Of a stretch of DNA of 28,069 nt, positions 5,765 through 21,988 are shown in pieces. Source of the stretch: a virus. The notes under the pieces were generated by a model, which was not told where the DNA came from, searched no databases, and saw nothing but the letters and a program-made list of their open reading frames with translations. Location of the stretch: positions 1-28,069 of the IMG/VR virus record IMGVR_UViG_3300038436_000215. The stretch is one strand, 5' to 3'. The translations under genes and the position numbers were made by a program. Each line of letters opens with the position of its first letter. Within the stretch, counting starts at the first letter, position 1.

Positions 5765-6262
5765 TTATTTAAGTAATACCCAATCTTCATTTGGCATTTC
5801 GCAATCATCCATTAGCCATGCTTTTGTGTTTGTTACATCTAACCGGGTGGGATATTTTTTGTAGAATTCGCCCAGCTTCTCCAGCTGTATCATAAATCTT
5901 ACGGGTAAAAGTCCTTCCAGATATATTATTTCAGATAGTTGATTCAAATAATGCAGACCAATGTTTATGCATTTAATGTTGCAATGCGATAACCGTCGGA
6001 CATCTTCCGGATTAATTAACAGACCATTGCTATAAATAAATATGTTTTTATCAGCAGGGATTCTATCTAAGGTTAAATACAATAATTCCTTTCTTAAAAA
6101 AGGTTCTCCACCGGTGATGCACACATTTTTATATTTACTGAAGTCAATTTCGCTGAAACTTTTCTTCACGAATTGTGAGCTGAATTGTTCTTGTTCATTG
6201 CAGCAGTAATGACAGCTTAAGTTGCATTCGGTAAATAGTATTAACCTTAATGTGTTTTTCAT
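5765..6262 (-). CDS. Small radical SAM protein
   Basis: The CxxxCxxC cluster motif is at Cys13, Cys17 and Cys20 (TECNLSCHYC), and would bind a 4Fe-4S cluster that cleaves S-adenosylmethionine. ITGGEPFL (49-56) is the GGEP motif contacting the SAM amino group. At 165 residues it holds only about half to two thirds of a usual radical SAM barrel, like activases (NrdG) or QueE-type enzymes. No class III ribonucleotide reductase or queuosine-pathway gene is visible. Its place among the early genes suggests base or protein modification, but the substrate cannot be told. The ATG follows a TAA as TAATAATG and lacks a strong ribosome-binding site. Confidence 0.85.
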   Translation of the reverse strand: MKNTLRLILFTECNLSCHYCCNEQEQFSSQFVKKSFSEIDFSKYKNVCITGGEPFLRKELLYLTLDRIPADKNIFIYSNGLLINPEDVRRLSHCNIKCINIGLHYLNQLSEIIYLEGLLPVRFMIQLEKLGEFYKKYPTRLDVTNTKAWLMDDCEMPNEDWVLLK

Positions 6263-7420: not shown

Positions 7421-7991
7421 CAATAAGCTCCAACTCACCATCACGCCAGCCGGATTCGTAATCGACTTCACGCGGGGGTTTAATACAAGTTGCTAAGTCA
7501 CGGATTTGGTTCCAGCTAAACTCGCTGCGGATAATTTTTATTCTTTCTCCAGTAGAACTGGGAATGCTGGTTGATTTGTCAATTTCACTCAAATTCCTAA
7601 TCACAGTTCCTTTGTGGTTCATGTAGTTAACAAGCAGCACAGCAAACGACAATTTCCACTTTGAACCATCGGGCATAGTGATTATTATAAATTTATACAC
7701 CACTTTATTCCTCCTTTTATTATTTCTTCTTTCTCGTTTAGATCTACCCGGATAAAGAGTAATAATGCGTCCATTACGAAATATGAATTTTAGATTGTAT
7801 TCACGGTTAAGCAGCATTTGTCCTTTATCGGTTGTGCTAACCGGCTCGGCATTATTGAATAACATGAAGATGTAATTTCGAGTTTTAGTAAGTCTTGCTT
7901 GCTTGTCCGGTATGCTTGCAAGAGCAGGATTAAATCTGTTGATATAACTCTCGCAAGCATGATCGGTTATATATATTTTGTTTTTAGGCAT
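7413..7991 (-). CDS. Hypothetical basic protein after MuB
   Basis: This is a 192-residue protein. The N-terminus reads YITDHACESYINRFNP, then a strand-rich core (EYNLKFIFRNGRIITLYPG) and a strongly basic stretch RSKRERRNNKRRNK (about 83-97). The D-H-A-x-E-x-(Y/R)-x-x-R start followed by beta strands resembles small RelE- or DUF4258-like folds, but the match is too weak to assign a function. Nucleic-acid binding is plausible from the charge. Its ATG overlaps the MuB stop (ATGA), so the two are coupled. Confidence 0.6.
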   Translation of the reverse strand: MPKNKIYITDHACESYINRFNPALASIPDKQARLTKTRNYIFMLFNNAEPVSTTDKGQMLLNREYNLKFIFRNGRIITLYPGRSKRERRNNKRRNKVVYKFIIITMPDGSKWKLSFAVLLVNYMNHKGTVIRNLSEIDKSTSIPSSTGERIKIIRSEFSWNQIRDLATCIKPPREVDYESGWRDGELELIDA

Positions 7992-8896
7992 CAGCTTATT
8001 ATTAAAGTTGTTGCTGCTTCTTCAATTAGATCCTCGGTTATATGACCTTCTTCGCCGGCGACTACTCTGATTGCATCAAGTAAATTACCGAGGTGTCGTG
8101 CATTTCGTTTTGAATGGGAATAAATAACTCTCCAGAGTGCATTTACACCGGGGAGGTTTGCTTGGATAATTTCTTGAGCGTCTCTTTCGTTTAGCACACC
8201 GACCTCATGAGCTAATCCAACCCGAGAATAAAGCTGCGCAAATTCACCACGTCTGCCACGTAGATTTTTAATAAGTTGAGTGGTTCCGACAAGTAGTACT
8301 CCGATCTTTGATAGATCCCAAAGCCTTCTTACTAATTCGAGACACCGTTTTGGAAGATTTTCCGCTTCATCGATGATCAGGATAATATTTGTCTCTTTCA
8401 GTCTGTTTTCGGTTTCTTTAAACATGCTGTGGATAGAGCCAAGTCCGGATAGTTTTAATTCAGAGTGAAGTAATTTGAAAAGCTCGCTTGGCGAGATAGT
8501 TGGTACGGCTTCAATAAGTATGACACCTGAATATTTTTCAGTAAATTCTTTAACGGCAATTGATTTTCCAGTCCCGGGATCTCCGGTGACAACACATAAT
8601 TTTTTTTGATCTTTTGCATATTTAGCCACTTTAAATAGTTCACGCATTGTTTGAGTTGTAACAATCTGCTGTGTCTTTATCGAAGTTGTTAATCGGTTCT
8701 TTTCCTCATCAATATATTTTTGTAGCTTTGCAGCAAGGGGAGTTTCGTCACCCGAATATTTGTTGGCTGCAAAGAGTGATATGGTGCTAGCTGAATATGC
8801 GCCGGCTAATGAAGCACTGATTTTCTTAAAAGAAGTTCCGGTGAGTTTTCTGTAGTTGTTTAATTCAATTCTTACTTTTTCAATATAATTTTCCAT
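7991..8896 (-). CDS. B: MuB-type AAA+ transposition ATPase
   Basis: This is a 301-residue protein (Mu B is 312). Residues 1-65 form an N-terminal helix-turn-helix-like domain. Walker A GDPGTGKS is at 105-112, Walker B IILIIDEAE at 171-179 and a sensor-1 strand LLVGTT at 201-206. The C-terminal helical part (about 235-300) matches the MuB lid. MuB forms ATP-dependent filaments on target DNA, delivers it to the transposase and gives target immunity. The start carries the AAACGAGAGGAA leader motif (8903-8914), 6 bases before the ATG. A 72-base gap separates it from the pseudo-ATPase gene. Confidence 0.92.
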   Translation of the reverse strand: MENYIEKVRIELNNYRKLTGTSFKKISASLAGAYSASTISLFAANKYSGDETPLAAKLQKYIDEEKNRLTTSIKTQQIVTTQTMRELFKVAKYAKDQKKLCVVTGDPGTGKSIAVKEFTEKYSGVILIEAVPTISPSELFKLLHSELKLSGLGSIHSMFKETENRLKETNIILIIDEAENLPKRCLELVRRLWDLSKIGVLLVGTTQLIKNLRGRRGEFAQLYSRVGLAHEVGVLNERDAQEIIQANLPGVNALWRVIYSHSKRNARHLGNLLDAIRVVAGEEGHITEDLIEEAATTLIIS

Positions 8897-8968: not shown

Positions 8969-9430
8969 TTATAAACTTACTTTGTAATCAACCTCCGCTA
9001 AAGCTTTGTTCCTATATATTTTGCTGTCATGCAGCAAATACATATATCTTGGATGCGAACTAACCAAGACGACCGGTTGTTGATATTTATCATTAAGCTC
9101 AAGTAAAAAATCCAGACCGCTTGGTGAAACCATTTCAGCGGAATCAACTATAATTGCTCTCTGATTCTTATCTTGTGCGGTCATAAACTTTACAATCTTT
9201 GTTTCAACTCTTTCGCTGCTGTGCATGCCAAGATCTTTCCCAAAAGCCATAACCATGTTAGTTTTTCGGGAACACTTTAGTCCGCTAATTAAGAATTCAT
9301 CTCCTAATTTTGCGAGAAGACTCTTTTTCTCATCTTCTTCCAAATTATAAATAGCACAGATGCCCCGGTGCCGTTTAATTCGCTCAATTGTATCCAAAGC
9401 GAACTGCTGTTTTTTGATTGCTGCCATCAT
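8969..9430 (-). CDS. Degenerate MuB-like protein without a P-loop
   Basis: This is a 153-residue protein. It lines up by eye with the AAA+ core of the neighbouring MuB: GICAIYNLEEDEKKSL (23-38) stands where MuB has its first strand and P-loop, AIIVDSAEMVSPSGLDFLLEL (92-112) is a Walker B-like strand with DS in place of DE, and VVLVSSHPRYMYLL (120-133) matches sensor 1 and the next helix. It ends about where the MuB lid would begin. With no GxxGxGK[ST], ATP hydrolysis is unlikely, so a regulatory or structural MuB paralogue is the best reading. AAGGAGG precedes an ATGATG that overlaps the transposase stop. Confidence 0.7.
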   Translation of the reverse strand: MMAAIKKQQFALDTIERIKRHRGICAIYNLEEDEKKSLLAKLGDEFLISGLKCSRKTNMVMAFGKDLGMHSSERVETKIVKFMTAQDKNQRAIIVDSAEMVSPSGLDFLLELNDKYQQPVVLVSSHPRYMYLLHDSKIYRNKALAEVDYKVSL

Positions 9431-11427
9431 GCCTCCTTAACGTTTCTGAAGAATATGTTTTCCGATTTTTCTTTTACTTCAATGTCGTCCATTTTATTTA
9501 AGAAACTAATGCGTTTTTTGCTTGCTTTACTCTCTTCCTTTGATACTTCTCTTTTATAAACATCAGCTTGATCTAATTTGATAATATTTGCTTGTGCAAG
9601 ATGCCGTTGTGATTCCGGCAGCACTTCTGTTTTTAAGAATTGTTTTGCTTCGCTGATTACCGTCTTTTTAAGTTGACCTTTCATTTCCAAAGCGGCGTTA
9701 AGTTTTATTACATCTTCCGCTGTTCCTAAGATACCGGCAGCGGGATTTACTTTATCGGTTCTTGTTGCTTCGCATATAAATTTACCATCCTCGTCATAAA
9801 CGTAAATAGTATCGTTTTCAATAAGGTCATACTTGATGACAGCATTTATAGACTCAAGCCCGAAGAGTTCTTCATTCCAGTAGTATTTCCCTAAAAATTT
9901 AATTCCATTACGATAAATTGTTTTGACTTCTTCACTCATCATGAGGAACGTTAATTCTTTTTTGTTTATTCCATCACCTTTACCATCGAGAAATACCTGG
10001 CTTGGAGTTAATCCTTTAAGGTGACCGTCTTGTTGTTCACGTTTTGCATATTCGTCAAACCACCAAGCAACGGCTCGGTGTGCAGTTGCTAAATCGAAAG
10101 TTGTATTTTGATGTAAACGTTCATGCAAACTCCTATGGACTCTCTCGCCTCTGTTCATTCTTGGCGGTTGCATTTCGATTGAAGTACCTACATAAGTAGG
10201 GAGCATTCTTTCTAGCTCGCTAAATGATCTAAAGAATCTCTCAATAGTTTTGGATTGCCCGTGATACGGCCATGCCGTGATTAGCTTTGCTCCGATGCGT
10301 TCAAAAATTCCATTGAAGCCCACAGTTCTGAAATCGACACCCTTGAAGAATCTAGCACCGAATGCTCGACCGTTATCGAGATAAATTACTTTTGGGTATT
10401 TACCCAACCTCATAATTGCTCTTCGTAAAGCTACAGCAATGGACATCACGTTCTCAGTAGGTGAGATCTCCCAACCAAGAGGATAACTACTTTTCATATC
10501 CAAAAACAGAATCATCATCATCCTTTTGGGTTTACCGGTAAATGGATTTATTACTTCAAAATTGAGTACGTGCCCGTCAGCGACTAGAATATCACCCACT
10601 TCAATCATATCATAATCACGTTCAATATAAGGAAGACATTTATCGTTTAATCCTTTTTCGCCTTCGCGGTAGAATACCCAATATGCATAGTTCTTGATTT
10701 TCCAATCTTCAATATACCTTCGGTAGGTTGCAGTGCTTTTTATATTCTCATAATTTTTCATTACAAAAATATCTTTTGCTTTTCGTATTACTTCGGATAT
10801 TAAAGGATTGTTAGGGTTGAGTGCGAGTTTAATCAGTATTTCGGATTGTTCTTTCGGAATACTGAATCCTGAAGGCGATGTATAACCAGGAGCTAGCGAC
10901 CGGTAATCTTTATCTGATTCAAGAAAAGTTTTTTTCCATCGTTCAAGAGTTCTATAACTAACTTCACCTAAAATTTGATAAAGATTTGGGAGAGCATTCA
11001 GATTGTATGTTTCAACAAACTGTTTCTTGGCTTTAACCACAGATTTTTTAGAGTCTTCTGCAGTTTTAATATATAGCTTGACAAGATCAGTTCTCGCTAA
11101 AGCGACTTTTAATTTATCGCCGGTTAATTCGTCATTAATCGGAGTTTTATCTTTAGTTATTATCTCCGTTTTCTCGCTTACCTGAAGCGATTGAATTTTT
11201 TCATTCGATAGTTCTTCTCCCCAATATTTTATTTTTACTTTTGTTGGTATTAGAGAATCATTAATATGGATATGATTCTTGCTGTTGATCTTTTTTACCT
11301 GAGCGTACTTTCCTCTTCGCAGTCTTGTCCAAATTGCATTGTATTCTTTCTCAATGTTATCAGGACTTGTTAGTGCTGCCAATTCTTTAAGAGAAAGCCA
11401 CCCGTCTTTTTCTAACTGTTTTTCCAT
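9427..11427 (-). CDS. A: MuA-type DDE transposase
   Basis: This is a 666-residue protein (Mu A is 663). Residues 5-60 form an N-terminal Mu-type winged helix (WLSLKELAALTS, then WTRLRRGKY). About 110-260 form helical DNA-binding domains for the element ends. The RNase-H-like core carries the catalytic triad Asp284 (VADGH), Asp351 (YLDNGRAF) and Glu396 (SKTIERFF). A beta-barrel-like domain follows (about 490-560), then a Lys/Glu-rich tail that in Mu contacts MuB. It cuts the phage ends and joins them to target DNA for integration and replicative transposition. The stop overlaps the next start. Confidence 0.95.
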   Translation of the reverse strand: MEKQLEKDGWLSLKELAALTSPDNIEKEYNAIWTRLRRGKYAQVKKINSKNHIHINDSLIPTKVKIKYWGEELSNEKIQSLQVSEKTEIITKDKTPINDELTGDKLKVALARTDLVKLYIKTAEDSKKSVVKAKKQFVETYNLNALPNLYQILGEVSYRTLERWKKTFLESDKDYRSLAPGYTSPSGFSIPKEQSEILIKLALNPNNPLISEVIRKAKDIFVMKNYENIKSTATYRRYIEDWKIKNYAYWVFYREGEKGLNDKCLPYIERDYDMIEVGDILVADGHVLNFEVINPFTGKPKRMMMILFLDMKSSYPLGWEISPTENVMSIAVALRRAIMRLGKYPKVIYLDNGRAFGARFFKGVDFRTVGFNGIFERIGAKLITAWPYHGQSKTIERFFRSFSELERMLPTYVGTSIEMQPPRMNRGERVHRSLHERLHQNTTFDLATAHRAVAWWFDEYAKREQQDGHLKGLTPSQVFLDGKGDGINKKELTFLMMSEEVKTIYRNGIKFLGKYYWNEELFGLESINAVIKYDLIENDTIYVYDEDGKFICEATRTDKVNPAAGILGTAEDVIKLNAALEMKGQLKKTVISEAKQFLKTEVLPESQRHLAQANIIKLDQADVYKREVSKEESKASKKRISFLNKMDDIEVKEKSENIFFRNVKEA

Positions 11428-11429
11428 AA

Positions 11430-11900
11430 TTACACCAGGTTATTTTTTATTGCAAATTGAATACGTTGGGCTTTGTTGCCGATACCGGTTTTTGCTTTAA
11501 TATTTGCAAAGTGGTTGTTTACAGTGTTTACACTAATCGATAATTTATCAGCAATGTCTTTTGCAGACAGACCATTAGCTTCCCATCTAATCATCTCAAT
11601 TTCTCTTTTAGTTAATAGCATAAGTTTATCTTCATCAATATGATTACTCTTCACTTCCTGGCTTATATATGGTTGCGGTGGATTGATCTTATCATGATGT
11701 TTCGTCAACATAACGTAATTCATTAGCTTTTCATTCATTAATTTTTCGTTACGCAAGCTTTGAATCTCAAATTGCTGTTTTTCTTTATCTCTTTTGACAT
11801 TCAAAAAATGTATAAATCCAACCGTTACAAGCACAGCCAAACATGCCAGTATTAGAACTAACATCAGAACATCAATACCTATTGTTGTCGATGATAACAT
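11430..11900 (-). CDS. Membrane-anchored LuxR-type transcription regulator
   Basis: This is a 156-residue protein. Residues 10-32 are one strong transmembrane span near the N-terminus. A charged helix with a tandem NEKLM repeat (51-60) follows, then a C-terminal LuxR/GerE helix-turn-helix (96-156, LTKREIEMIRWEANGLSAKDIA, recognition helix VNTVNNHFANIKAK). There is no receiver or autoinducer domain, so input must come through the membrane or a partner. It overlaps the seven-helix membrane gene by 22 bases and ends 2 bases before the transposase gene. AAGGTG precedes the ATG. A signal-controlled regulator here is not part of the Mu plan. Confidence 0.85.
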   Translation of the reverse strand: MLSSTTIGIDVLMLVLILACLAVLVTVGFIHFLNVKRDKEKQQFEIQSLRNEKLMNEKLMNYVMLTKHHDKINPPQPYISQEVKSNHIDEDKLMLLTKREIEMIRWEANGLSAKDIADKLSISVNTVNNHFANIKAKTGIGNKAQRIQFAIKNNLV

Positions 11901-12499
11901 ATCACACCTTTTGTAAATAATATATTTTGAGTTACAACAAGGATAGCATGTAAATTATATGCGAAGAATAGAGTTACGGATGCAAATCCGAATACGACGA
12001 CATTATTCAATGAATAAATTAGTATCCCCAAGATTATATAGTAATACCAAGAATATTTTCTCTCGCTCACTAGGATGTTAACCTTAGCTACAGTCTTAAA
12101 ACCCAACAATGAAAAAGCGAGGCAATTAATTACAATCATTTCGTATGGAGGATTATTAATCTCACCGAAGAGAATATCAATTAAAATAGGAACGGTAATC
12201 AAAGCAAATATTTTTGTTAGAGTGAGTGCTTTATTCCCTTGTAGAAGAATTAATAAAAACCCTCCAAGTAGGAGCATTTCGACAACAACATAAACACGAA
12301 CAATATTGACATTTGTTGTGCCGGCTAAGCTTAGTGCCGATATGGTAGTTTGGAAAAAGAAAGCGACTGAAAAATAGAGCACGAACAACCAATAACTATA
12401 TTCGTGTTTTTTTCTTTTCCTATTCAGTTGAAAGTAGACAATGCTTGCTGCCGGCAACATCATCGATAACGCTCCTACATATTGAAGTATTATAGCCAT
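11879..12499 (-). CDS. Seven-helix integral membrane protein
   Basis: This is a 206-residue protein that is almost entirely membrane. Likely spans are at about 2-24, 34-60, 66-88, 93-112, 118-138, 150-168 and 170-197, with short loops and basic patches (NRKRKKHE after span 1). The layout resembles the seven-helix sensor modules seen in front of kinases and regulators in Bacteroidota, but no output domain is attached. The next gene, overlapping by 22 bases, encodes a membrane-tethered LuxR regulator, a natural output partner. A superinfection-exclusion protein or transporter remains possible. The family is not recognised. Confidence 0.7.
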   Translation of the reverse strand: MAIILQYVGALSMMLPAASIVYFQLNRKRKKHEYSYWLFVLYFSVAFFFQTTISALSLAGTTNVNIVRVYVVVEMLLLGGFLLILLQGNKALTLTKIFALITVPILIDILFGEINNPPYEMIVINCLAFSLLGFKTVAKVNILVSERKYSWYYYIILGILIYSLNNVVVFGFASVTLFFAYNLHAILVVTQNILFTKGVICYHRQQ

Positions 12500-12506
12500 A
12501 AAATAA

Positions 12507-12914
12507 TCAGCAAAAAGGTGGACATAACATTGAAACTTCCAACGTGTAATTACCGTTGGTAACAGTTAGTACATCGCCTCGCATTTCTATATACGTAGTT
12601 GATGCCCCTCCGGCGGACAGAAGTTCCTTAACTTTCTCTTTGGAAAACATATGATATACATCACTGTCATTTACTCCAAATTTGGTTAACAATGATTTTC
12701 GGTTATCTCCGAGTATGTTCATTTGAGAATTCTCAACTCGGAACATCACTTGCTGCTCTGTTAACCTTATCCTTGAGCTGAGTTCTGATGTAGAGATCTC
12801 AACAGATTGAGTAACTTTGCCGAAGAGCTGGTTTGCTTTTTCAGCGGTGAAAATCTCTCCCTGCGCAAATAATGAAGAGCTTGTGAGTGTTAATAACAAG
12901 ATGAGTGATTTCAT
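12507..12914 (-). CDS. Exported protein of unknown family
   Basis: This is a 135-residue protein with a signal peptide (1-17) ending in LFA before QGE, typical of Bacteroidota. The mature part is a small soluble domain (about 115 residues) that ends abruptly in CPPFC, so a disulfide near the C-terminus is likely after export. AAAGGAGG lies 5 bases before the ATG. The gene is 7 bases upstream of the seven-helix membrane gene, in the same operon. It may be the extracytoplasmic ligand or accessory protein for that membrane protein (inference). I do not recognise the family. Confidence 0.7.
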   Translation of the reverse strand: MKSLILLLTLTSSSLFAQGEIFTAEKANQLFGKVTQSVEISTSELSSRIRLTEQQVMFRVENSQMNILGDNRKSLLTKFGVNDSDVYHMFSKEKVKELLSAGGASTTYIEMRGDVLTVTNGNYTLEVSMLCPPFC

Positions 12915-12999: not shown

Positions 13000-13308
13000 T
13001 TAACTATTTACTAAACTTTTGGATTGTGTTATATTGTTATCTATGTATAAAGTGGAAGTATTTACATTAAAGGCATTTTTATAAAGCTCTAAACAAGCTT
13101 TGTAAATTTTTTTTGTTGTTTCAGGACTGCCTTGGGATTTTTTAAATGCTTTGTAAATGGTTGATCTATTAAGCCCTGTTTCAATGGCAATGAGATTAAA
13201 GTTGAGGGTCTCTTCGCTAATCTCAATGTCATAGACTCTGTAATAAGCTTTCTTCTTATTCTTCATAACTTTTAAGAAGCGGTATATTTTGTTTATTTGA
13301 TCAGCCAT
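13000..13308 (-). CDS. Small HTH regulator, first gene of the early operon
   Basis: This is a 102-residue basic protein with a helix-turn-helix at about 40-75 (LIAIETGLNRSTIYKAFKKSQG, then PETTKKIYKACLEL), similar to small phage Cro or Ner-like proteins. In Mu, Ner is the first early gene and shuts down both the early and the repressor promoter. Here the protein is divergent from the XRE-type gene with an operator between them, which fits a Ner/Cro role. The last 25 residues are polar and unlike a DNA-binding fold. Confidence 0.7.
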   Translation of the reverse strand: MADQINKIYRFLKVMKNKKKAYYRVYDIEISEETLNFNLIAIETGLNRSTIYKAFKKSQGSPETTKKIYKACLELYKNAFNVNTSTLYIDNNITQSKSLVNS

Positions 13309-13344: not shown

Positions 13345-13362
13345 GTTAGCGATTTCACTAAT
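13345..13362. promoter_or_regulatory. Operator-like palindrome, site 2, between divergent regulators
   Basis: GTTAGCG-ATTT-CACTAAT sits in the 109-bp gap between the leftward HTH gene and the rightward XRE-type gene, the classical place for a phage switch operator. Arms pair with one mismatch. The flanking CAAAG is shared with site 1. Confidence 0.75.
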
Positions 13363-13417
13363 ACTTGTCAAGAAAAAAAATAAGCTTATTCACTAATTAA
13401 AATAGCAGAGAATAACT

Positions 13418-13996
13418 ATGGGATTCGGGAAAAAGTTAAAGCAGCTCGGAAAGCAGAAATTTGGAACTCTAAAACGATTTGCCGAAGCATGGGAAATCCA
13501 CGAGCCATCATTGCAAAAGTATATTAATGAAGAGCAGGAACCCGGTAGAGCAAAACTGGCAAAGCTGATACCGTTGGGATTTGACCTTAATTATTTGCTT
13601 GATGATAATGCAACCCTCAATGGACATTCTACGCTAAGAGAAAAATCAATTGATTATCATGCTAACACAATTGAGTCTCTACATTCTTTATGTATCAAAA
13701 TGGAAGAGTTATATTACATATTAACTTCCTATCATGATTTTGAGAATCCAACTAAGCATAACAAAGAGCTAGTCCTTTTGTTACGTTGGATGGAAAGAAT
13801 TTGTGAAACGAGTTTGGAAATGATCCGGAATTCAATTGAATCAGAGGATGATTCGTTTATAAACATCAATGATAAAAAAATGCTTGAAGAAGTTATCTCC
13901 CAGCATAAGAATTTACTCTCAAGATTAAAAAATACTAATACTGAGATTGAATTGTCGATAAACTATAAAAGGAGTGGTTCTGAAACGGCAGGATAA
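13418..13996 (+). CDS. XRE-type regulator, probable phage repressor
   Basis: This is a 192-residue protein. The N-terminal 65 residues form a Cro/CI-type helix-turn-helix (FGTLKRFAEAWEIHEPSLQK, then REPG-like EEQEPGRAKLAKLIPLGFDLNYLLD). The rest is helical and acidic. There is no S24 self-cleavage peptidase, so induction by RecA as in lambda is not expected. It is the only rightward gene between two leftward operons and faces the early operon across an operator, as Mu c does with ner. Its stop lies 27 bases from the stop of the convergent late operon, and I see no clear terminator between them. Confidence 0.75.
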   Translation: MGFGKKLKQLGKQKFGTLKRFAEAWEIHEPSLQKYINEEQEPGRAKLAKLIPLGFDLNYLLDDNATLNGHSTLREKSIDYHANTIESLHSLCIKMEELYYILTSYHDFENPTKHNKELVLLLRWMERICETSLEMIRNSIESEDDSFININDKKMLEEVISQHKNLLSRLKNTNTEIELSINYKRSGSETAG

Positions 13997-14818: not shown

Positions 14819-14836
14819 ATTAGCGTATTCGCTAAT
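14819..14836. promoter_or_regulatory. Operator-like palindrome, site 3 (perfect arms)
   Basis: ATTAGCG-TATT-CGCTAAT has two perfectly complementary 7-bp arms. It lies just past the stop of the zinc-ribbon gene and 68 bases upstream of the 93-residue gene. With its flanks (14818-14839) it matches site 4 at 21 of 22 positions. The same arms as sites 1 and 2, but a TATT spacer. Confidence 0.7.
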
Positions 14837-16760: not shown

Positions 16761-17137
16761 TATTCATAAACCTCATAACAATATCTAAATCCTTGAAACC
16801 CTTTCATTGGAATTGGCTCTCTTAATTTTGTTACAGGAGCTGCCACTTGAACCCAAATCTTTCCGGATTTATATTCACCGGTATAGCATTTAATATTTCC
16901 TAAGTCTTCATAGCCGATGATGTTCGCTCTGAATCTTATCGCCCCATCAAACAATAAATAGAAATAAAGTATGTCGTACTTTGGTTTACCAGGAAGATTA
17001 AATACCCAGTGATAATCCTCAATCTCATTCATCTTTAGAAAGGTGCGTTCCCATTCTTTGAGTCCCTTAGGTAAACGATTGATCCATTCATGAGGCATTG
17101 TTTTAATAATACCTACTGGCTGCTCGTTAAACTGCAT
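16760..17137 (-). CDS. PUA/ASCH-like small protein next to the methyltransferase
   Basis: This is a 125-residue protein. Strands DILYFYLLFDGAIRFRANIIGYE, then IWVQVAAPVTKLREPIPMKGFQGFRY, follow the pattern of PUA-fold proteins (ASCH/EVE types), which bind RNA or modified bases in a small barrel. The assignment is from pattern only. The gene overlaps the end of the DNA methyltransferase gene by 11 bases and precedes MuF directly, so it is co-expressed with both. A reader of modified phage DNA or an RNA-binding role are both possible. Confidence 0.55.
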   Translation of the reverse strand: MQFNEQPVGIIKTMPHEWINRLPKGLKEWERTFLKMNEIEDYHWVFNLPGKPKYDILYFYLLFDGAIRFRANIIGYEDLGNIKCYTGEYKSGKIWVQVAAPVTKLREPIPMKGFQGFRYCYEVYE

Positions 17138-17906
17138 TTAATCTTCTCCTTGCAATTCTGCAGTACTGAGAACTTATATCGCAACCGAGGAAATTTCTGT
17201 TAAGCAGTTTCGCTTGTTTAAGAGTTGTTCCACTTCCGGACATCGGATCAAAAACGAGATCTCCTTGATTAGTCCAGCTAAGGATGTGATCTCTTGCTAG
17301 ATCCTCCGGAAAGATTGCTGGATGTTCAAATGCAATTTTATCTTTACTTGTATGCATATACCCAACACGATAAAACCAAATATTACTTTTGATTTTTTCT
17401 TCTTGAATCCGGTTTATCTTTTTACGAGAAATTGATCCGTCTTTTTGCCTGAAGCCTACATTGTTTGTGCTACCTGCATATTTGCATGGCTCAATGATAG
17501 GATTAAATTTTACCGGCAAACCTTTTGAGAAAACAAACATATATTCAAATGCTTGCGCATATCTTTTATGAATGATCTGTTGAGGCATGGGATTCTGTTT
17601 CGCATAAATCATTGTCTCAAGATTGAAACCACACACTTCAACAAAATAGATCGCCTGTTTAAAACTCGTTAATGATTCTGATCCCTTTTTTGTTTGATCA
17701 TTAACAACCCAAACAATAACTCCTCCGGGTTTTGTAATTCTGAAAAGCTGATGAGCAATATCTTCGAATTGAAAATTATAACCCTTGTAATCTCTTAGAT
17801 TATCATAAGGAGGAGATGTTACGGTAAGATCAACAAGTTCATCGGGCAGCTTCTTCATAAAAACCGAAGCTTCCGAGCAATAAATTTTGTTGACACTAAT
17901 ATTCAT
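17127..17906 (-). CDS. DNA methyltransferase, beta class (N4-cytosine or N6-adenine)
   Basis: This is a 259-residue protein. The catalytic motif TSPPY is at 30-34, in the typical start context (NKIYCSEASVFMKKLPDELVDL). The SAM-binding motif I DPMSGSGTTLKQA is near the C-terminus (220-232), the order of beta-class enzymes. It transfers a methyl group to the exocyclic amine of C or A; the target is unknown. No restriction enzyme is nearby, so it is an orphan phage methylase probably shielding DNA. The frame stays open to an ATG 14 codons upstream (17946-17948); the chosen start fits the family but has no ribosome-binding site. The upstream leader is shared with the Dam gene. Confidence 0.88.
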   Translation of the reverse strand: MNISVNKIYCSEASVFMKKLPDELVDLTVTSPPYDNLRDYKGYNFQFEDIAHQLFRITKPGGVIVWVVNDQTKKGSESLTSFKQAIYFVEVCGFNLETMIYAKQNPMPQQIIHKRYAQAFEYMFVFSKGLPVKFNPIIEPCKYAGSTNNVGFRQKDGSISRKKINRIQEEKIKSNIWFYRVGYMHTSKDKIAFEHPAIFPEDLARDHILSWTNQGDLVFDPMSGSGTTLKQAKLLNRNFLGCDISSQYCRIARRRLNAV

Positions 17907-17942
17907 TATCAGTATTGTACCAAGTAATATTTTAATAAAATT

Positions 17943-17961
17943 TACCATCGGGATTTTAGCC
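17943..17961 (-). promoter_or_regulatory. Shared 19-bp leader element, copy 1
   Basis: On the plus strand this reads TACCATCGGGATTTTAGCC. The same word with two changes occurs at 21798-21816. Both copies lie 37-50 bases upstream of the likely start of a DNA methyltransferase gene, and both are followed by ATGGTA and a TTTATTAAA-like stretch. It is probably a promoter, regulator site or leader of common origin. Confidence 0.5.
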
Positions 17962-19599: not shown

Positions 19600-21003
19600 T
19601 TACCAATAACCATTAAGTATTGATGTGCTTTCTCGTTTACCGCCGGATGCGATGATAACGGGACCGGCATTGCTCTTACGCGCATGTCTGTTTAATGCGA
19701 ATGCAAAAAATCTATCGGCATGACCGTGTTCGGTTTCGGTAGCTTCATAACGAACGTTACCGGCTGCGGTAACAACTGCTTTAACCGAATAGAAATCATC
19801 TCTTATTTTTTTATCTCTCGGTATCAATACTCTTCCGTTTTCAACTTGCACGTAAGCGTGAGTTGCAAGTTCTTCTTTAATTGCGTTTGTAAAAGTGACC
19901 GGTTCAACTTTAAATTTTCCGAAATCTTCTTGTGCTTCTTCGGCTATTTGCATACCAAGACCGGATGAATCTATACAGCATCTTCTTAAATTCGGGTGAG
20001 ATAAAATTTCGTATAAAATTTTCTTTTGATCACGGAATGAAAAATTCTGCATCTCGATAACTTGACGTGTATAATCAAGTTCGCCGATTGATTCGGTTAC
20101 CCAAATAACCGAGAAGTGTTTTCTCCTAGCAACGTCGAAGCCTGCGTATAAATTGCCGGTTGTTTCTTCAAGTGGTCTAAGAATATCATCTCGCATTACA
20201 TCGTTGATCATTGCGAAGCTTAATAAATGTGAAGATGAAGATGAACGTGGGATGCAATAATACTCTTCCATTATTGCTTCTTGGGTCATTCCGGAGAAGG
20301 AATCTTTTTTGAAATATTCTATTTCTTCTTCAGTTGCCGGTCTATTTAGCTTTTTGACTTTCTCTACTAAACCTTGAGCGATTGCATCATCGAGAGTCGT
20401 TTTATGGAGAGACCAATTCTCCATATCGCCATCTTTACCTTTATTAATTTCTTTAATGAGCTGATTGAAATAGGACTCTTCGCCGTTGTGAGTAGAGATG
20501 ATTCTAAGTTCAGCACCCCACATTGTTGAAGGTTTAGCAGCCTGAAAAAGTTTCTCTGCTTGTTCGTGATGAGCAAATTCGTCAAGGATAACACGACCGC
20601 CTTTGGATCTAAACTTAGTCGGGTTACTTGAGATAACATTTATCTCGCTCCCGGATGCATACTTAACGGTGTGGACTTTCACATCACGATCTTTATCTAT
20701 AATGCGCTCACCCATATCCTCGGCAATTGCACCGATAATTTCGTTCCACATTTTAACGTAGTCCATAAACTCTTCAGCAGCTGTTAAGTCTGCCGAAGAG
20801 AACCAAACTTCTTTTACTCTACCGGCAGCCGCATCTAATGCATTGTCGAAAGATTCAACATAGGTCATACCGATACGTCGTGACTTTTCTACTAATTTGA
20901 AACGGGATTTATCATTTAAATACCTCGCCTGGTAGGGCATGAAATACTTTTTGATAATTTGTTTAATTGCTTTCTCTTCGATATGTTGATTTGTCTCTGC
21001 CAT
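19600..21003 (-). CDS. Large terminase subunit (Mu gp28-like)
   Basis: This is a 467-residue protein. The ATPase domain has a Walker A-like VEKSRRIGMTY (38-48), Walker B GRVILDEFAH (136-145, Asp141 and Glu142) and coupling motif STHN (170-173). The RNase-H-like nuclease has acidic residues at Asp290 (YAGFDVARRKH), Asp345 (CCIDSSGLG) and Asp430 (GHADRFF). It pumps DNA into the prohead and cuts it; in Mu, packaging starts in the phage end and takes in some host DNA. Its ATG overlaps the Dam stop (TAATG). Confidence 0.93.
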   Translation of the reverse strand: MAETNQHIEEKAIKQIIKKYFMPYQARYLNDKSRFKLVEKSRRIGMTYVESFDNALDAAAGRVKEVWFSSADLTAAEEFMDYVKMWNEIIGAIAEDMGERIIDKDRDVKVHTVKYASGSEINVISSNPTKFRSKGGRVILDEFAHHEQAEKLFQAAKPSTMWGAELRIISTHNGEESYFNQLIKEINKGKDGDMENWSLHKTTLDDAIAQGLVEKVKKLNRPATEEEIEYFKKDSFSGMTQEAIMEEYYCIPRSSSSSHLLSFAMINDVMRDDILRPLEETTGNLYAGFDVARRKHFSVIWVTESIGELDYTRQVIEMQNFSFRDQKKILYEILSHPNLRRCCIDSSGLGMQIAEEAQEDFGKFKVEPVTFTNAIKEELATHAYVQVENGRVLIPRDKKIRDDFYSVKAVVTAAGNVRYEATETEHGHADRFFAFALNRHARKSNAGPVIIASGGKRESTSILNGYW

Positions 21004-21752
21004 TAATAGTTTTTTATAATTAATTCTTTGTAAATGTTGTTGACAATATTTTTTCGATTGATACCGTTAACCCTTTCAATCGGTTGTATGTTGAACTGCT
21101 TAAAGAGCTTTCTATTTTTCGGATGATCATCGAGAGTCAGCAGGAATCGTGCTTTTAGATTTTTTAATCTTTCTAAAAAATCTTCATAGTCCATACGTCC
21201 GGCTTTGTATTGATGACCTTGACGATAAGGTGGATCCAGGAAAAAGAAATTTTTCTCGAGATCATAAAATTCAAGGATCTCTCTATAATCTCGATTCTCC
21301 AGAGTAACTCGGTCTAATCTGTCAGAAACATGCTGTACATGCCTAAGCATGTTATTAAGAGATTTAGCCGGATTAGATTTTGCTGATCTCCCGAAATGAT
21401 CCCCTTGCGAACCGAATGATCTTTTTATTAAATAAAAAAATCTTGCAGCCTGTTGAATATCCGTTAATCCCTTTTGTTCTCTGATCTCTTCAAAAAGTGA
21501 TCTGCTGTGAATCATAAACTCAAGTTCTTTCTTCATTTCGGCAGGATGATATTTCACTACAAGAAATAAATTAGTGAGTCTGCTGTCTATGTCGTTATAA
21601 ACTTCAACATCAGCCCATTTTTCTTTATAGAATAAAATCCAACCGGCTCCACCGAATACTTCTATGTATCCATTGATGTCGCTTGGGATTTGGTCTGAGA
21701 TTATTTGTCTCAGTTGTTTCTTACCGCCAATCCATGAAATTAGACTATCCAT
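21003..21752 (-). CDS. dam: Dam-type DNA adenine methyltransferase (D12 class)
   Basis: This is a 249-residue protein. SAM-binding motif I is SWIGGKKQL near residue 5 plus YIEVFGGAGWILF near 30, and the catalytic motif FLDPPYRQG is near 172, the alpha-class N6-adenine layout. Dam relatives often methylate GATC, but the site cannot be told here. An upstream in-frame ATG (21801-21803) exists; the chosen ATG has AAGGAGT 5 bases before it. Operator site 4 lies 14 bases upstream, so the repressor may control it. Mu also makes a DNA modification (Mom), whose gene depends on Dam. Confidence 0.9.
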   Translation of the reverse strand: MDSLISWIGGKKQLRQIISDQIPSDINGYIEVFGGAGWILFYKEKWADVEVYNDIDSRLTNLFLVVKYHPAEMKKELEFMIHSRSLFEEIREQKGLTDIQQAARFFYLIKRSFGSQGDHFGRSAKSNPAKSLNNMLRHVQHVSDRLDRVTLENRDYREILEFYDLEKNFFFLDPPYRQGHQYKAGRMDYEDFLERLKNLKARFLLTLDDHPKNRKLFKQFNIQPIERVNGINRKNIVNNIYKELIIKNY

Positions 21753-21765
21753 TTGGTACTCCTTA

Positions 21766-21783
21766 ATTAGTGTATTCGCTAAT
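21766..21783. promoter_or_regulatory. Operator-like palindrome, site 4, upstream of dam
   Basis: ATTAGTG-TATT-CGCTAAT, one mismatch between the arms. It lies 14 bases upstream of the dam start and just next to the ribosome-binding site, so a bound repressor would block expression. With its flanks it matches site 3 at 21 of 22 positions. Confidence 0.7.
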
Positions 21784-21797
21784 TTAATAAACATAAA

Positions 21798-21816
21798 TAC
21801 CATCGGATTTTTAGCC
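21798..21816 (-). promoter_or_regulatory. Shared 19-bp leader element, copy 2
   Basis: On the plus strand this reads TACCATCGGATTTTTAGCC. It matches copy 1 (17943-17961) at 17 of 19 positions without gaps. It lies 46 bases before the dam start codon, followed by operator site 4. A weaker match (GGAATTTTAGCC) lies at 652-663. Confidence 0.5.
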
Positions 21817-21970: not shown

Positions 21971-21988
21971 ATTTGCGAAGTCGCTAAT
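21971..21988. promoter_or_regulatory. Operator-like palindrome, site 5 (weaker)
   Basis: ATTTGCG-AAGT-CGCTAAT. The right arm fits the consensus fully, the left arm differs in one base and the spacer differs. It overlaps the last codons of the small terminase-like gene, at the head of the gap before dam. It may be a degenerate member of the family. Confidence 0.4.

Follow-up and report, generated by a model that had tools for sequence, protein, structure and literature searches.

What do an exported protein, a seven-helix membrane protein and a membrane-anchored LuxR-type regulator do in the early region of a phage, directly in front of its transposase gene? The question arises in a Mu-like transposable phage known from a whole virus record of 28,069 bases, all of which was analysed (the window). 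Its MuA, MuB and Mu portal genes were recognised with Pfam and PHROGs (portal, PF06074; protease, phrog_976), and its hosts are probably Bacteroidota-type bacteria, the phages of which have been little studied. A preliminary description of the DNA had proposed that the three genes read an envelope or population signal and pass it to transcription of the transposase genes.

Three consecutive genes lie between a Cro-like gene and MuA

The early operon runs along the minus strand in the order Cro-like helix-turn-helix (HTH) protein, exported protein, seven-helix protein, LuxR-type protein, MuA, a 153-aa protein and MuB, and a repressor-like HTH gene diverges from it (Table 1). The coordinates, strand and spacings described for the three genes were confirmed to the base: a 7-nt gap separates the first two, the second and third overlap, and MuA starts 2 nt past the stop of the LuxR-type gene. 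All the protein features listed earlier are likewise present, namely the signal peptide, the C-terminal CPPFC, the seven hydrophobic spans and the single span of the LuxR-type protein.

Table 1. Features of the early region and of the plasmid locus compared with it. Positions are those of the window unless a record is named.
Feature	Position	Strand	Evidence and remarks
MuB-type ATPase	7991..8896	-	AAA_22 3.6e-20, phrog_296 1.1e-58
MuA-type transposase	9427..11427	-	Mu-transpos_C 1.1e-12, phrog_310 2.3e-82
Membrane-anchored LuxR-type regulator, 156 aa	11430..11900	-	GerE 6.7e-16; one span
Seven-helix/LuxR gene overlap, 22 nt	11879..11900	-	19 nt in L015
Seven-helix membrane protein, 206 aa	11879..12499	-	seven hydrophobic spans; homologue L015:4713-5315
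Exported protein, 135 aa, C-terminus NGNYTLEVSMLCPPFC	12507..12914	-	signal peptide; 43% identical to L015:4277-4702
Small HTH protein in Cro/Ner-like position, heads early operon	13000..13308	-	weak HTH matches
Palindromic operator candidate TTAGCGATTTCACTAA	13346..13361	.	between divergent repressor and early genes
Divergent repressor-like HTH protein	13418..13996	+	RstR-like HTH 6.7e-4
Spirosoma oryzicola plasmid locus	NZ_CP089539.1 209131-211741 (L096:3341-5951)		CPPxC protein, seven-helix protein, one-span histidine kinase, LuxR response regulator

The gene of the exported protein carries a Shine-Dalgarno GGAGG; its signal peptide ends at SLFA/QGE, with AQG at the cut site, and leaves a mature part of about 117 aa. 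The seven-helix protein has an N-out/C-in topology by the positive-inside rule, and its AlphaFold model, of low confidence (pLDDT 54), likewise consists of seven helices. Of the profile-HMM and structure searches suggested earlier, those with the LuxR-type protein matched GerE in Pfam, confirming the predicted LuxR HTH, while the exported and seven-helix proteins stayed without a family: neither gave a usable match in Pfam, PHROGs, NCBIfam, PADLOC or the PDB, the structure models were poor (pLDDT 54 and 46) and fold searches with them were uninformative. Matches to an IA-2 receptor or SLATT identity for these two proteins were weak, fell below cut-off and were disregarded.

A short radical-SAM protein is also encoded in the early region (5765-6262, minus strand; 165 aa, PF04055 3.6e-11). 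As a modifier of the CPPxC tail it was rejected: a 55% identical copy is present in a relative without the three genes (L002), and it was not found in L015, the relative that has them.

The cassette is kept together in a divergent phage and is rare in the searched data

MuA profiles retrieved about 80 distinct viral loci. One of these, L015 (IMG/VR 3300044823_000534, a 41,720-base record), has a MuA 49% identical to the one described here and shows the order repressor (minus strand), Cro-like protein, exported protein (ending in CPPNCP), seven-helix protein, one-span LuxR-type protein, an extra 71-aa gene and MuA. Identities between the two phages are 43% for the exported, 25% for the seven-helix (phmmer 2.4e-8) and 26% for the LuxR-type proteins, and none of 2000 block-shuffled controls scored as high as the real alignment for any of the three (z 24, 9.8 and 7.6, respectively). 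The seven-helix homologue in L015 has six clear spans and a weaker seventh. Homologues of the flanking regulators are found as well: L015:3889-4161 corresponds to the Cro-like gene in an equivalent place (2.8e-4), and the repressor-like gene is matched by L015:3256-3795(-) (1.3e-7) and in L016 (1.8e-9).

Since homologues of all three genes, with order and place kept, occur in a phage with 49% MuA identity, the arrangement goes beyond chance, and on sequence grounds the three genes are not chance open reading frames. We conclude that the cassette is real, kept together and rare within the searched data, its conservation being that of one pair, the two phages carrying it. It had been asked earlier whether the genes stay together before MuA in relatives; in the divergent L015 they do. 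Scattered or single occurrence, which would have counted against a cassette, was not seen for the exported and seven-helix proteins in MuA loci or in phage and plasmid records: no fetched MuA locus besides L015 encodes either, the about 80 other loci have no such trio, and an isolated GerE-like ORF in L044 is the only LuxR-type match in MuA loci outside L015. The seven-helix and LuxR-type proteins were not found in the full records of eight relatives, phage and plasmid collections contained nothing convincingly related to the exported or the seven-helix protein at the sensitivity used, and a scan of viral contigs for bacterial-type seven-helix genes found none.

The three might be unrelated cargo genes that happen to share one operon, and the small genes of this interval do differ in most relatives. 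Nevertheless, a phage whose MuA is about 50% identical has the same three genes in the same order and with the same kind of overlap, and a Bacteroidota plasmid shows a parallel layout (see below); we regard accidental neighbourhood as very improbable.

Small proteins bearing signal peptides also adjoin the repressor gene, on the repressor strand, in three of the relatives (L002:5374-5880 (-), L016:3585-4121 (-) and L015:2633-3219 (-)); these are possible lysogenic conversion genes.

The LuxR-type regulator consists of a membrane anchor, a linker and a GerE domain

In the LuxR-type protein a charged, helical linker connects a span (residues 11-27) to a GerE domain (95-150), which scores 58.1 bits against a Pfam cut-off of 23.5; the counterpart protein in L015 (5297-5788) also has one span and a GerE domain (38.5 bits, 8.9e-10). 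The significant part of the alignment between the two is confined to the DNA-binding domain, span and linker being alike in shape only. An autoinducer-binding domain, sought with Pfam, is absent, the N-terminal 92 aa being taken up by span and linker, and a search for a Response_reg receiver domain as in NarL-type regulators gave no match. In both phages, the GerE domain thus comes without a receiver domain but is membrane-anchored. No PADLOC defence model matched over most of a protein; the matches were partial only, one between a CARF model and the GerE region and another, weak, to PDC-M33C. Matches of the LuxR-type protein in human-faecal 'phage' sequences were set aside as response regulators or bacterial-looking.

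Flavobacterial phages are known to carry LuxR genes, which have been read as density sensing (PMC8776804). Bacteroides phage Versailles offers a further case of a LuxR-type regulator at the switch of a Bacteroidota phage: its GerE protein (L014:2683-3189) lacks a membrane span, bears a sigma-factor annotation and is encoded immediately after a repressor-annotated gene.

A plasmid locus of Spirosoma resembles the phage cassette

A query sequence taken to represent a Bacteroidota seven-helix family matched one protein, encoded on a plasmid of Spirosoma oryzicola (Table 1). The first protein of that locus (161 aa) carries CPPQC near its C-terminus and, read from the annotated start, lacks a signal peptide. 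The HisKA_3 kinase has an unannotated in-frame start (4486, not 4621) that adds one span and a helical linker, and with this extended start its gene overlaps the seven-helix gene by 25 nt. Layout, approximate overlap and CPPxC motif are therefore shared with the phage, whereas the output of the plasmid locus is a kinase with a separate response regulator and that of the phage a tethered GerE protein.

A weak profile match covers the CPPxC tail of the Spirosoma protein, and CPPxC occurs in only 1 of 292 non-overlapping ORFs of the plasmid; motif and overlap were recognised in a locus already identified. Between the seven-helix proteins, hhalign gives a score of 16.9 against decoys of up to 17.9, which is not significant by sequence alone; a strong hhalign link was not counted, because it needed the query sequence in the profile and otherwise did not rise above decoys. 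Taken together, the comparison is suggestive of homology between the phage trio and the Spirosoma locus. If this link holds, it suggests that in the phage version the phosphorelay was dropped and the LuxR domain joined directly to the one-span anchor. The pair of CPPxC-protein and seven-helix genes on the Bacteroidota plasmid appears to be uncharacterised.

The CPPxC tail is conserved in both exported phage proteins and predicted to be capable of forming a disulfide. In an alternative reading, the exported protein would be a pro-pheromone with a CPPxC loop as signal, the seven-helix protein its receptor and the LuxR-type protein the executor of an arbitrium-like counting of infections. Conservation between the exported proteins peaks in the last 24 alignment columns (16 of 23 identical), and within this C-terminus the tails, CPPFC and CPPNCP, differ at the x position and the last residue; the early-operon location would suit an infection counter, and in Spirosoma, too, a CPPxC protein is encoded ahead of the seven-helix gene. 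The signal peptide missing from that protein's annotated start speaks against such phage-to-phage communication, however, as does the conservation of the mature part without the tail (z 15.7), so that the protein would be more than a leader. Moreover, we know of no protease site or exporter for it, and variation in specificity is not demonstrable from two sequences. We consider this reading unlikely.

The regulator occupies the place of a CII-like gene

Upstream sequence of 1.5 kb or more was available for 70 loci, and in the Cro-MuA interval of 56 of them an iterated profile found a CII-like/CP76-like or related HTH gene; in L016 and L065 this gene belongs to Phage_CP76, the CII family. CP76 regulators of Mu-like phages share with the LuxR-type protein the early-operon position before MuA but are HTH proteins without a membrane part. 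Both trio phages are among the 14 loci without a CII-like gene, which suggests that the LuxR-type protein fills the CII role. The missing gene counts as one observation and is not strong by itself, because other HTH genes may have crept into the iterated profile and the two trio phages probably belong to a single lineage; it is weak evidence also because about 20% of the relatives lack one.

No LuxR-type operator was identified, inverted repeats before the exported gene being within chance in both phages. A dispersed 16-bp palindrome resembling TTAGYGAWTTCRCTAA, picked by eye and post hoc, has 16 strand matches with up to 3 mismatches, against 3.6 expected. Its sites are intergenic or near starts (673-688, 13346-13361, 13381-13396, 14820-14835, 21767-21782 and 21972-21987) and some fall in the promoter region of the divergent early genes and around the start of a D12 adenine methyltransferase gene. 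The pattern looks as if one repressor controlled several units. The apparent D12-class DNA methyltransferase (21003-21803, minus strand; PF02086 4e-19) is encoded among the head genes, as is a second apparent DNA methyltransferase, called from motifs, beside the portal gene (17127-17948, minus strand).

The trio might instead sense the envelope and regulate host genes, for example surface or receptor genes, or act in superinfection exclusion, and not regulate the phage switch. Exported or membrane proteins of phages are often exclusion or conversion factors and surface traits are commonly under LuxR-type regulators, which, like the fact that no phage operator was found for the LuxR-type protein, speaks for such a role. 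Conversion genes, however, usually lie outside the lytic early operon, whereas the trio sits inside it in both phages, at a CII-like place just before MuA; we regard a host-directed cassette as quite improbable.

Discussion

On balance, we lean towards reading the trio as one transmembrane signal-input cassette by which the phage regulates its early choice of transposition/lysis or lysogeny. In this respect the preliminary proposal gains from the recurrence of the unit in L015, the LuxR-type protein at the CII place and the look-alike on a Bacteroidota plasmid, while a sensor at work in a quiescent prophage fits less well. Because the trio lies inside the lytic early operon, its products, if transcribed from the early promoter, would be made mainly after infection or derepression, and a decision taken after infection, as with CII or arbitrium, therefore fits better than a sensor in a quiescent prophage.

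We envisage that the early operon, from the Cro-like gene through the trio and MuA to MuB, would be expressed on infection or derepression, and that the exported protein would reach the periplasm or the outside. There, via its CPPxC tail, it may be a ligand or sensing partner of the seven-helix protein, which in turn would touch the span and helical linker of the LuxR-type protein and govern dimerisation or release of its GerE domain. The latter could then act on early or repressor promoters, so that the LuxR-type protein would do a CII-like job under the control of a signal from the envelope or from outside the cell. Inferred parts of this scheme are the contacts between the proteins, the signal, the promoters acted on and the sign of regulation.

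Judged by analogy, the trio would work most like co-component systems such as ToxR/ToxS and VtrA/VtrC, in which a membrane-tethered transcription factor is encoded next to, and often overlapping, the gene of a sensing partner, and the sensor part evolves fast (PMC9214523). The layout is the same in that one operon encodes a tethered transcription factor side by side with a membrane or periplasmic partner, but the domains that define these systems of enteric bacteria, a winged HTH of the CadC/VtrA type and a lipocalin-like partner in the periplasm (PMC9214523), are missing: the trio combines a GerE HTH with a seven-span partner and a third, exported protein in a phage early operon. Phage LuxR-type quorum-sensing receptors (PMC6456758) and LuxI/LuxR prophages (PMC13345283) respond to small autoinducers. 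They also tie a LuxR/GerE regulator to a life-cycle decision, whereas the trio has no autoinducer domain or synthase and instead a membrane span with two membrane or exported partners. In other prophage modules, the repressor is inactivated by a small protein that a transcription factor, encoded next to it, turns on (PMC10432266); these share with the trio a prophage-encoded, SOS-independent sensory input, but have no seven-helix or exported partner.

The trio also bears comparison with arbitrium. In the AimP/AimR/AimX system a hexapeptide is imported to a cytoplasmic TPR regulator. An exported phage protein and a regulator acting early in infection are common to both, and the logic may be shared, whereas the receptor candidate here is a seven-helix membrane protein; Pfam, PHROGs and NCBIfam revealed no AimR-type TPR regulator with HTH among the three proteins. 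It is a doubtful but conceivable extension that a phage's own extracellular signal (the CPPxC-tailed exported protein), a seven-helix receptor and an anchored LuxR factor, derived from a Bacteroidota two-component-type locus by direct fusion of DNA-binding domain and anchor, replace CII in the choice between lysogeny and transposition and amount to transmembrane phage communication.

In the open-access literature we found no description of a phage membrane receptor together with a membrane-anchored LuxR protein. The phage decision systems studied so far mostly sense inside the cell, through imported peptides, diffusible autoinducers or DNA damage. If the signal-input reading is true, a phage membrane receptor that works with a tethered transcription factor would give a virus a new means of reading the exterior of its host.
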